DNA of 33,119 nucleotides, taken from the IMG/VR virus record IMGVR_UViG_3300037584_000415, positions 1 to 33,119 of that record; one strand, written 5' to 3'. This document shows positions 5,106 through 11,112 of the stretch, in pieces. The position numbers were made by a program, and so were the translations under genes. Positions within the stretch are counted from its first letter, which is position 1. Every line of letters begins with the position of its first letter. The notes below the pieces were generated by a model. It saw nothing but the letters and a program-made list of their open reading frames with translations, did no database searches and was not told the DNA's origin. Source of the stretch: a virus.

Positions 5106-5285
5106 ATGAAAGCAACAATGACTAAAGAAGAATACAGAGAATTTACTACAAGTGTAGATTGGTTACAACAAGAACATAATATAAACATTCCTTATATTGT
5201 TGAAGAAGTTAAAGGAAAATTTGTAATAGAATTATTAGAAAATATTGATGTAAGAAAATTAGATAATCTTTTAGAAAACACTTGA
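5106..5285 (+). CDS. Small hypothetical protein (59 aa)
   Basis: ATG at 5106 follows taaggaaaaaa. The frame closes at TGA 5283-5285, and this stop is embedded in the -35 hexamer of the following promoter. The product is acidic and helical (YREFTTSVDWLQQEHNINIP). No domain recognised. It is the last gene before the SSB transcription unit. Confidence 0.6.
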   Translation: MKATMTKEEYREFTTSVDWLQQEHNINIPYIVEEVKGKFVIELLENIDVRKLDNLLENT

Positions 5286-5310
5286 CAACAGAACAGAATG
5301 CTGATACAAT
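5282..5310 (+). promoter_or_regulatory. Sigma70-type promoter upstream of SSB
   Basis: TTGACA (5282-5287), 17-base spacer, TACAAT (5305-5310), with TG one base before the -10 (cTGATACAAT). This is an exact -35, 5/6 -10 and extended -10 at ideal spacing. It is followed by a non-coding leader of about 130 bases, as expected for a genuine promoter. Predicted transcription start is near 5317. Confidence 0.75.
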
Positions 5311-5316
5311 TTATGG

Positions 5317-5419
5317 ATGGCGAACAAACGAGCAACCGAACTAGCCCTCTATCTCCATGTATTAGTAGGTTTGGTTCTTACCACAACTCCGAGAGTAGTT
5401 GGCTCATAACTCTCTTTTT
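5317..5419 (+). ncRNA. Candidate short terminated RNA or attenuated leader
   Basis: From the predicted start near 5317 to the T-run at 5415-5419 is about 103 bases with no gene and higher G+C than its flanks. Pairings visible: atgga (5313-5317) with tccat (5354-5358); gaacaaac (5322-5329) with gtttggttc (5369-5377, one bulge); caact (5384-5388) with agttg (5397-5401). The last would place the 5' arm of the terminator in a loop, so it could compete with termination. The unit is either a small RNA or an attenuated leader of the SSB gene. Which one cannot be told from sequence. Confidence 0.4.
5391..5419 (+). terminator. Intrinsic terminator or attenuator upstream of SSB
   Basis: gagagt (5391-5396) pairs with actctc (5409-5414) around a 12-base loop, followed at once by TTTTT (5415-5419). 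It lies between the promoter at 5282 and the SSB start at 5448, so read-through is needed for SSB expression from this promoter. The stem is only six base pairs, so termination may be partial. Confidence 0.5.
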
Positions 5420-5447
5420 ATTAACTTAATATCATAAGGAGGAAAAT

Positions 5448-5861
5448 ATGATAGTAAATGGAACTGCGTATTGGGCAAGTATTAAGACACCTAATACGAC
5501 TTTTGAACCTATGTATACAGTTAACTTAGTTGTTGACCAAGCGACAGCAGATGACTTTGCAGGTCGTGGACATACAGTAAAGCAAATGGATGAAGGTCCT
5601 GCTTTGGTTATCAAGCGTAAGGTAAATGGTCCTAACGGAATGGTTAGGAATGCACCTAGATTGATTGACCAAAACAAGCAAGACATTAACCTTGCTGTAG
5701 GTAATGGCTCTCAAGTTAGAGTTCAATGTAGTGAATATGAATGGGAGTATGCAGGTAAGTCTGGTAAAAGTCTTGACCTTCAAGCTGTCCAAGTCATTGA
5801 GCTTATTGAATACAAAGCTGAAGACGGGTCAGAATTTTTTGATGATAACGAGGAGTTTTAA
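5448..5861 (+). CDS. Single-stranded DNA-binding protein, T7 gp2.5-like
   Basis: The 137-aa product binds single-stranded DNA at the replication fork. Its N-terminal beta-rich part (NGTAYWASIKTPNTTFEP, YTVNLVVDQ, KRKVNGPNG) resembles the OB-fold of phage gp2.5-type SSBs, and it ends in an acidic tail closed by phenylalanine (FFDDNEEF), as in T7 gp2.5 (known to contact the polymerase). At 137 aa it is much shorter than T7 gp2.5 (232). The ribosome binding site is strong (taaggaggaaaat). It is the first gene after the leader RNA and lies just upstream of primase-helicase. No gene symbol is given, because the assignment rests on pattern and position. Confidence 0.75.
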   Translation: MIVNGTAYWASIKTPNTTFEPMYTVNLVVDQATADDFAGRGHTVKQMDEGPALVIKRKVNGPNGMVRNAPRLIDQNKQDINLAVGNGSQVRVQCSEYEWEYAGKSGKSLDLQAVQVIELIEYKAEDGSEFFDDNEEF

Positions 5862-5863
5862 TT

Positions 5864-6136
5864 ATGATTATTACCATCAAGAATGATAGTGGCGAAACAG
5901 TTTATGATGTTTCAAAGATAGAAAATAGTGATTCCAGAATGAATGCTAGTGTTAGTATAAACAAAATGGGAACATTAAATACTTTAACTGAAGCATTAAA
6001 CTATGCCACACAAGGACATCAAGGTAATCTTGAAACATTACTATCTGATTGTCCTGAAGCTATAGTTGAAACACCAACAGAAGACGGTGGACCAACTATT
6101 AAGGAAGAGGAAGCTTCAACCGAAGAAGACTCTTAA
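5864..6136 (+). CDS. Small acidic hypothetical protein (90 aa)
   Basis: The ATG at 5864 is two bases after the SSB stop, with gaggag within the SSB coding end as binding site. The N terminus is strand-like (MIITIKNDSGETVYDVSKI) and the C terminus is a disordered Glu/Thr-rich tail (TIKEEEASTEEDS). Pairing with SSB suggests a role in replication, but this rests only on position. Confidence 0.7.
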   Translation: MIITIKNDSGETVYDVSKIENSDSRMNASVSINKMGTLNTLTEALNYATQGHQGNLETLLSDCPEAIVETPTEDGGPTIKEEEASTEEDS

Positions 6137-9892: not shown

Positions 9893-10685
9893 AATTAACG
9901 AAATCATTGACAAATCTAAATTAGACAACTATAATAAGTTTACATCTGAATCAGGACATTGGTATACCCAAGAGGGAGAACCTATGTATACTCTAATAGG
10001 TGCTAATGGTAAAGAAAGAAACACCACATTAAGAGATGCAAAAAGTTTAGGACTTGTTCCTTCTGTAACTACTATACTAAGTATGGTTGCTAAACCTGCA
10101 TTAGAAAATTGGAAACTTACACAAGCTATTACATCTGCTATTACTTTAAATAGAAAAGATAATGAATCATTAGATTCTTATATTTATAGATGTAAGTCTG
10201 ATGCTAAAAGTATAGGATTAAATGCAGCTAAAGAAGGAACTAAAATTCATGGTCAAATAGAAACAGGATTTTTGGGTGGTAAGAAAACTAAACCTTACAA
10301 AATTATTAAGAAGTGGTTAGATGAAAACTTTACTGACCACGATTGGATTGCAGAAGATTCTTTCTGTGCACCTCAAGGTTATGGTGGTAAAATAGATTTA
10401 TATTCTAATGATGTTTTCATAGACTTTAAAACTAAAGATAATCTTGAAGGCAAAGACCCTGCTAAATTAGTTTATGATGAACATGGTATGCAACTCTCGG
10501 CTTATGCTCAGGGTATGGGAATAGATTGTCCTACAAGAGTATCAATATTTATTGACAGAAAAGATACAAATATTATATTGTTTCACATATGGGATTTAGA
10601 ATCACACGATAGGCATATAAAAATGTTTAATAGTATATTAAAGTATTGGCAACTTGTAAAAAATTATGAGTGGGATAATGCCTAG
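9882..10685 (+). CDS. PD-(D/E)XK exonuclease, RecB/Cas4-like (267 aa)
   Basis: Probable DNA exonuclease, filling the role T7 gives to gp6. Motifs in order: GTKIH (His123), GKIDL (Asp172), IDFKTK (Asp181, Lys183) and QLSAY (Gln204-Tyr208). These are the RecB-type nuclease motifs. The N-terminal GLVPSVTTILSMVAKPAL is typical of phage members of this family. Start ATG 9882 overlaps the upstream gene by 11 bases. Two promoter-like elements lie inside it (9907-9935 and 10552-10579). Confidence 0.8.
   Translation: MTNKINEIIDKSKLDNYNKFTSESGHWYTQEGEPMYTLIGANGKERNTTLRDAKSLGLVPSVTTILSMVAKPALENWKLTQAITSAITLNRKDNESLDSYIYRCKSDAKSIGLNAAKEGTKIHGQIETGFLGGKKTKPYKIIKKWLDENFTDHDWIAEDSFCAPQGYGGKIDLYSNDVFIDFKTKDNLEGKDPAKLVYDEHGMQLSAYAQGMGIDCPTRVSIFIDRKDTNIILFHIWDLESHDRHIKMFNSILKYWQLVKNYEWDNA
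9907..9935 (+). promoter_or_regulatory. Perfect-consensus sigma70 promoter inside exonuclease gene
   Basis: TTGACA (9907-9912), exactly 17 bases, TATAAT (9930-9935): both hexamers match the E. coli consensus at optimal spacing. It lies in the first 54 bases of the exonuclease gene, so the transcript would start near 9942 and serve the endonuclease and nrd genes. Activity is predicted, not shown. Confidence 0.6.
10552..10579 (+). promoter_or_regulatory. Candidate sigma70 promoter upstream of endonuclease I
   Basis: TTGACA (10552-10557), 16-base spacer, TATATT (10574-10579, 5/6 match). It lies in the 3' part of the exonuclease gene, about 90 bases upstream of the endonuclease I start, a natural place for a promoter of the endonuclease-nrd unit. 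Confidence 0.45.
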
Positions 10686-11112
10686 AAGAATACCAAGAAA
10701 ACCTAGACCTAAAAAAGTTAATGTACCTAAAGGGTATGATAGTAAATGGGAATATGATATACATCAATCTGTTTTAAAAGATTGGAAACATCATAATGAA
10801 CATATAGATTATATTGTTAAACATAAATATGAACCAGACTTTATAAAAGTTATTAATGGTCAAACAATATTACTAGAAGCTAAAGGTAGGTTTTGGGATT
10901 ATGCTGAATATAGTAAATATGTTTGGATAAGAGAGGCTTTAACAGAAGAGGTAGGAGAATTTGAGTTAGTATTTTTATTTCAAAAACCTTATGCTCCAAT
11001 GCCACAGGCTAAGAAAAGAAAAGACGGAACTAAAAGAACTCATGCAGAATGGGCAGAAACAAATAACTTCACATGGTATAGTGAAGAAACATTACCGGAG
11101 GAATGGAAATGA
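10678..11112 (+). CDS. Endonuclease I, T7 gp3-like (Holliday junction resolvase)
   Basis: Cuts branched DNA such as four-way junctions. In the frame from ATG 10678, the catalytic set seen is Glu25 (KWEYD), Asp54 (YEPDF) and Glu67-x-Lys69 (LLEAKG), close to T7 endonuclease I Glu20, Asp55, Glu65, Lys67. Later, RFWDYAEYSKYVWIREA matches the conserved KGxW...LIRE helix, and the C-terminal THAEWAETNNFTW matches the T7 YGEW/F segment. An alternative ATG at 10666 adds four residues; neither start has a strong binding site, so the start is uncertain. It overlaps the exonuclease end. Confidence 0.85.
   Translation: MPRRIPRKPRPKKVNVPKGYDSKWEYDIHQSVLKDWKHHNEHIDYIVKHKYEPDFIKVINGQTILLEAKGRFWDYAEYSKYVWIREALTEEVGEFELVFLFQKPYAPMPQAKKRKDGTKRTHAEWAETNNFTWYSEETLPEEWK

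Follow-up and report, generated by a model that had tools for sequence, protein, structure and literature searches.

A four-way junction with a pseudoknot in the leader of single-stranded DNA-binding protein genes of marine phages

Comparative sequence analysis predicts that the leader of a phage single-stranded DNA-binding protein (SSB) gene carries a four-way junction of helices P1 to P4, with zero unpaired bases at the junction, plus a pseudoknot in which the P4 loop pairs with the strand just 3' of P1. The fold is common to dozens of marine phages, in which it lies just ahead of the SSB gene, and by the database comparisons given below it is new and not in Rfam. It is likely to be a translational leader. 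The window in which it was found is a 33-kb virus record of 33,119 nt.

In the window the SSB gene occupies positions 5448-5861 of the plus strand with the ATG at 5448 and encodes a T7 gp2.5-like protein (PHROG 112) of 137 amino acids, which is 54% identical to the ssDNA-binding protein of HTVC115P. Genes for a T7-type primase-helicase, a family A DNA polymerase, an endonuclease I-like protein and a ribonucleotide reductase follow 3' of SSB, and the leader RNA precedes the first gene of this SSB-primase-polymerase block. By SSB and DNA polymerase the nearest cultured relatives are the Pelagibacter phages HTVC103P, HTVC104P and HTVC115P. A 90-amino-acid frame of a family that was not recognised lies between SSB and the primase-helicase (5864-6136). 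The endonuclease I-like protein (10666-11109), of a Holliday-junction resolvase family, shares the window with a leader RNA that is itself a four-way junction; this is probably a coincidence.

The promoter placed ahead of SSB by the preliminary description was confirmed: TTGACA/TACAAT at 5282-5310 has 11 of 12 matches and is the top-scoring site of the region. Promoter-like matches as a class were not in excess, with 16 in the region vs 16.9 in shuffles. Among the 80 leaders described below 71 had a -10-like hexamer within 60 nt upstream. A short frame upstream runs up to this near-consensus promoter, its stop codon overlapping the -35 box, which makes for a compact 5' leader. Use of this promoter would start transcription at about 5317 and give a leader of about 130 nt up to SSB; the RNA begins near this expected start. 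The elements of the leader are, in order:

5282-5310, plus strand: sigma70-type promoter with -35 box TTGACA (5282-5287), 17-nt spacer, -10 box TACAAT (5305-5310) and extended TG
5330-5333, plus strand: P1 5' arm, GAGC, pairs with 5402-5405
5334-5337, plus strand: P2 5' arm, AACC, pairs with 5368-5371; found by RNAalifold unprompted
5345-5357, plus strand: P2 loop, pyrimidine, near-invariant across leaders, CCCUCUAUCUCCA
5368-5371, plus strand: P2 3' arm, GGTT, pairs with 5334-5337; RNAalifold
5372-5374, plus strand: P3 5' arm, TGG, pairs with 5381-5383
5381-5383, plus strand: P3 3' arm, CCA, pairs with 5372-5374; RNAalifold
5384-5388, plus strand: P4 5' arm, CAACT, pairs with 5397-5401
5391-5396, plus strand: pseudoknot 5' arm in the P4 loop, GAGAGT, pairs with 5409-5414
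5397-5401, plus strand: P4 3' arm, AGTTG, pairs with 5384-5388
5402-5405, plus strand: P1 3' arm, GCTC, pairs with 5330-5333
5409-5414, plus strand: pseudoknot 3' arm, ACTCTC, pairs with 5391-5396
5415-5419, plus strand: TTTTT run directly after the pseudoknot 3' arm, not conserved
5426-5457, plus strand: hairpin at the ribosome-binding site (RBS hairpin), arms 5426-5436 and 5447-5457; the loop contains the Shine-Dalgarno (SD) sequence GGAGG (5438-5442) and the stem contains the AUG

Folding of the window leader as a single sequence was unremarkable (z = -0.44) and did not prove a structure, so relatives were compared. More than 100 leaders were collected from SSB homologues in viral contigs and by pattern scans, and 80 distinct ones remained after alignment to a covariance model, which has no pseudoknot. 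RNAalifold, run on the first 37 leaders with no structure supplied, returned P1 (GAGY/GCUC), P2 (AACC/GGUU), P3 (UGG/CCA) and P4 (CAACU/AGUUG), with successive helices directly adjoining. P1, P2, P3 and the RBS hairpin were absent from the preliminary description. An initial P2 pairing of 5334-5341 with 5369-5376 (model R1) was dropped, the AACC/GGTT pairing of RNAalifold being kept in far more leaders.

In the alignment of 80 leaders 98.5% of the cells were paired, and double changes occurred in 12 of the 16 pairs; the double-change cells numbered 148 vs a shuffle mean of 28. When pairing partners were slid by one column the paired cells fell to 42-48%. Since this alignment had been fitted to the model, events were also counted on an SSB gene tree, made without the RNA. 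One parsimony reconstruction on this tree gave, for the junction helices, 68 independent double changes from one canonical pair to another, with 7 breaks or regains, while 600 unrelated column pairs used as a control had a mean of 0.35 double changes per pair and a maximum of 3. The changes were distributed over P2 (19 over 4 pairs), P3 (18 over 3 pairs) and P4 (31 over 5 pairs). The 4 base pairs of P1 were kept in all distinct leaders, with one gap cell, and its fourth pair was U-G, C-G or U-A. G-U pairs (86) far outnumbered A-C cells (2), which argues that the sense RNA folds and not the opposite strand.

By the same reconstruction the pseudoknot helix, alignable in 79 of the 80 leaders, acquired 17 independent double changes over its 6 pairs, with arms such as GACAGT/ACTGTC, GTAAGGGT/ACCCTTAC and TGGGGC/GCCCCA (in the RNA GACAGU/ACUGUC, GUAAGGGU/ACCCUUAC and UGGGGC/GCCCCA). 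Thus the compensatory changes in homologous leaders that the preliminary description had named as a check were found, in the junction as well as in the pseudoknot. Its GAGAGT/ACTCTC stem, followed by TTTTT and then SSB, is present as it had said, and the hairpin 5384-5388/5397-5401, which it took to compete with this stem, is real and conserved, being P4. The competition did not hold up, however: both helices are kept and can coexist. Its remark that the hairpin would hold the 5' arm of the stem in its loop was borne out, as this is precisely the pseudoknot arm in the P4 loop. With P4 and the GAGAGU/ACUCUC helix both under selection, they most simply coexist as a pseudoknot. A different pseudoknot which had been suggested, with 5313-5317/5354-5358 crossing 5322-5329/5369-5377, has its letters in the window, but its first helix recurred in 13 of the 80 leaders and the 5' strand of its second helix in 1, so we abandoned it.

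One continuous strand runs through P4 and P1. To judge from these lengths, the linker of 2-5 nt from P1 to the pseudoknot arm is too short to cross nine stacked pairs, or to reach the P4 loop if P1 stacked end-on on P4, so that P1 is probably kept beside P4 by the pseudoknot. The P2 loop, which we also refer to as the CCCUCUAUCUCC loop, includes a near-invariant stretch of 12 nt, CCCTCTATCTCC, that was exact in 71 of the 80 leaders. It contains UAUCUCC, which is complementary to a GGAGGUA Shine-Dalgarno sequence.

An inverted repeat of the window gave the first sign of the RBS hairpin. The distance from the pseudoknot to the AUG is 30-58 nt with a median of 38, and this segment has 27% G+C, includes TTAA before the AUG in 63 leaders and holds the conserved RBS hairpin. 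A hairpin of at least 5 bp was present in 66 of 78 RNA-bearing leaders vs 7 of 30 SSB leaders that lack the RNA. Its upstream arm covaries with codons 2-3 across relatives: genes starting AUGAUA have the arms AUCAUA/UAUGAU, those starting AUGGCA have UACUGUUA/UGGCAGUA and UGCUAUG/UAUGGCA, and those starting AUGGCU have AGCUA/UGGCU. Swapping of the start regions lowered the score of the RBS helix from 12.1 to 9.5 in a test that ignores relatedness, and for this reason we regard the hairpin, as a comparative prediction, as well supported, yet less firmly than the junction. A 7-nt match between UAUCUCC and the SD occurred in 27 of 58 SSB leaders with the RNA, in 4 of 19 without it and in 28 of 95 other genes. 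Because this complementarity is weakly enriched, pairing of the P2 loop with the SD stays an idea: the loop may pair.

The RNA is tied to SSB. Pattern hits with the fold all precede SSB, at least 69 of them with an SSB gene in the 15-mer scan and one being cut at the record edge, and among the matches listed hits without the fold resembled chance matches, mostly in coding DNA. Eight records searched whole, of which four were phage contigs of 52-55 kb and one a metagenome-assembled genome (MAG), had one copy each. SSB relatives at least 65% identical to the L099 protein usually carry the RNA, whereas those at most 51% identical, of the HTVC115P type, are without it. In this sister SSB clade a TTGACA/TATAAT promoter is retained, and the SD follows it immediately with no RNA between. 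In L247, L248 and L249 the leader has no copy, and an SSB that shares 77% identity with an RNA-bearing one stands directly behind other sequence. In bacteria the RNA was present once, on a 10-kb contig of a Pelagibacter MAG; of the 297 genomes from the order of this MAG the other 296 had no copy. That contig has the gene order of the window and is therefore most likely a phage contig. The carriers are uncultured marine phages that most likely infect SAR11-type hosts, and the fold is a marker for this phage group.

Some further observations concern other loci. L309, L315, L321 and L323 (around 1200-1470) and L189 (2280-2410) have HTVC115P-type SSB genes without this RNA. Upstream of the promoter some HTVC115P-type loci have a long GC-richer stretch with conserved blocks, e.g. 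CTGGCTGAACAACAATAAGCTAGTTGTAAGGCA, possibly a different structured RNA; L309, L321 and L189 gave no Rfam match. In HTVC104P (L190, 2998-3040) a GGACTGTCGGC...GTCGGCAGTCC hairpin with TTTTTT lies just after SSB and is terminator-like.

At gathering thresholds none of the 4227 families of Rfam 15 matched the window or the divergent members of the group. With the leader alone and E values up to 10 nothing convincing appeared: cow-rumen-4 was the only match with 18.8 bits vs 48.5 required, and on the other strand Gl_U6 reached 10.8 bits vs 100 required. A blastn search of the leader against cultured phages gave chance matches only. No prior description of the fold was found in the open-access literature searched; one may exist elsewhere.

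Because the RNA is tied to one gene and the fold lies 5' of the RBS hairpin, it is most simply a translational operator. The AUG, 30-58 nt downstream inside its own conserved hairpin, points to translation, and the structure covaries in the sense strand and among the matches listed lies 5' of the same gene, as a cis-acting leader RNA generally does. By analogy we propose a cis-acting, protein-responsive translational operator of SSB, probably autogenous, and consider this reading about evenly balanced, as is autogenous control itself. Free gp2.5-like SSB would recognise the folded element once its ssDNA sites were saturated, and would then spread over the AU-rich linker and the RBS or stabilise the closed RBS hairpin, with the outcome that SSB represses its own translation; the invariant P2 loop may additionally pair with the SD. 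Some points weigh against the operator: SSBs of this family do without the RNA in L247-L249 and in the HTVC115P group, the RBS is a hairpin here but unstructured beside the small pseudoknot of the T4 operator, a larger element with an invariant loop might just as well serve a ligand that is a small molecule or a host protein, and T7 gp2.5 is not known as an autogenous repressor. A more speculative and rather doubtful version is a switch built of junction and pseudoknot, in which the invariant loop would touch the loop of the RBS hairpin and so mask the SSB SD, with SSB, ssDNA or a nucleotide as the ligand that lifts or reinforces the block. If true, it would be a new regulatory RNA class coupling SSB supply to replication in ocean phages.

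The reader of the fold need not be SSB. Another protein of host or phage, such as a ribosomal protein, an RNA chaperone or a nuclease, might bind it, or the fold might only stabilise or insulate the 5' end of the mRNA; its place near the expected transcription start and ahead of the first gene of the replication block would suit either. Plain insulation would have no need of an invariant loop or of an RBS hairpin that covaries with the start codon region, though, and we hold this group of explanations to be unlikely. Nor do we think it probable that the RNA is a riboswitch whose junction and invariant loop bind a replication-linked small molecule, e.g. a nucleotide, and so alter the RBS hairpin or access to the SD. 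The compact fold, the pseudoknot and the 12-nt near-invariant loop would fit such a sensor, and the RBS hairpin is a plausible expression platform, but among the matches listed the RNA stands only before SSB and in no case ahead of a metabolic gene, the 296 remaining genomes of the order to which the Pelagibacter MAG belongs have no copy, and no Rfam riboswitch matched.

A short regulatory RNA or a transcription attenuator with an intrinsic terminator at 5391-5419, as the preliminary description had it, now seems very improbable. In the window the 6-bp stem (-6.4 kcal/mol alone) is indeed directly followed by TTTTT. Yet in 50 of the 80 leaders no such run (5 of the first 8 nt) is found within 8 nt of the stem and in only 12 does it follow immediately; compensatory changes maintain the stem with or without following Ts, and P4, which would have to open, is kept as well. 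Since the U-run is not conserved, the stem is not a terminator and a free small RNA ended by it is unsupported. Of the proposed attenuator that sets the SSB level one half survives, in that the structured leader probably does set this level, while transcription attenuation falls with the U-run. We also considered a conserved leader peptide in place of an RNA because local frames look open, e.g. MANKRATELALYLH..., and an ATG frame is open through the core in 70 of the 80 leaders. It was rejected, with hardly any probability left to it, because reading frames are not kept across leaders: the core is crossed in all three frames (26, 34 and 10 leaders), spacing between invariant blocks varies by non-multiples of three, and the changes are base-pair compensations.

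Other structured leader RNAs of marine phages are the manA and wcaG motifs of cyanophages, which are mostly marine and precede metabolic genes, with the effector unproven there (PMC2864571). The present RNA differs in standing before SSB and has no sequence or model match to them. In the STAXI motif pseudoknots with UUCG loops stand in tandem near a variety of DNA genes, often near SSB (Weinberg et al. 2010, PMC2864571). It is likewise a pseudoknot-based element near SSB, whereas ours is a single element per record in the eight searched, lies only before SSB among the matches listed and has no model match, STAXI giving no Rfam hit in the leader even at E values up to 10. HTVC103P, HTVC104P and HTVC115P have a homologous SSB, and leaders of the HTVC115P type share this kind of promoter, but the RNA is missing from the SSB leaders of these three phages.

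For a phage SSB that controls its own synthesis through a structured leader, T4 offers a textbook case, and the gene 32 operator of T4 and RB69 is among the closest known systems. In T4 gene 32 a pseudoknot nucleates SSB binding, which spreads over the RBS; the T4 operator consists of a pseudoknot of about 28 nt and an RBS segment that is AU-rich, less structured and contains UUAAA repeats (PMC535899). The RNA described here likewise lies in the mRNA leader of a phage SSB and has its pseudoknot 5' of some 40 nt of AU-rich sequence that include the RBS. By sequence comparison it differs by its four-way junction with pseudoknot, its invariant loop, its RBS hairpin and its gp2.5-like SSB, and we regard it as analogous to, not homologous with, the gene 32 operator. 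Here an unrelated, T7 gp2.5-like SSB family carries an elaborate RNA fold of its own, and because the alignment gives the exact base pairs to break and restore, a matching of SSB supply to replication is directly testable.
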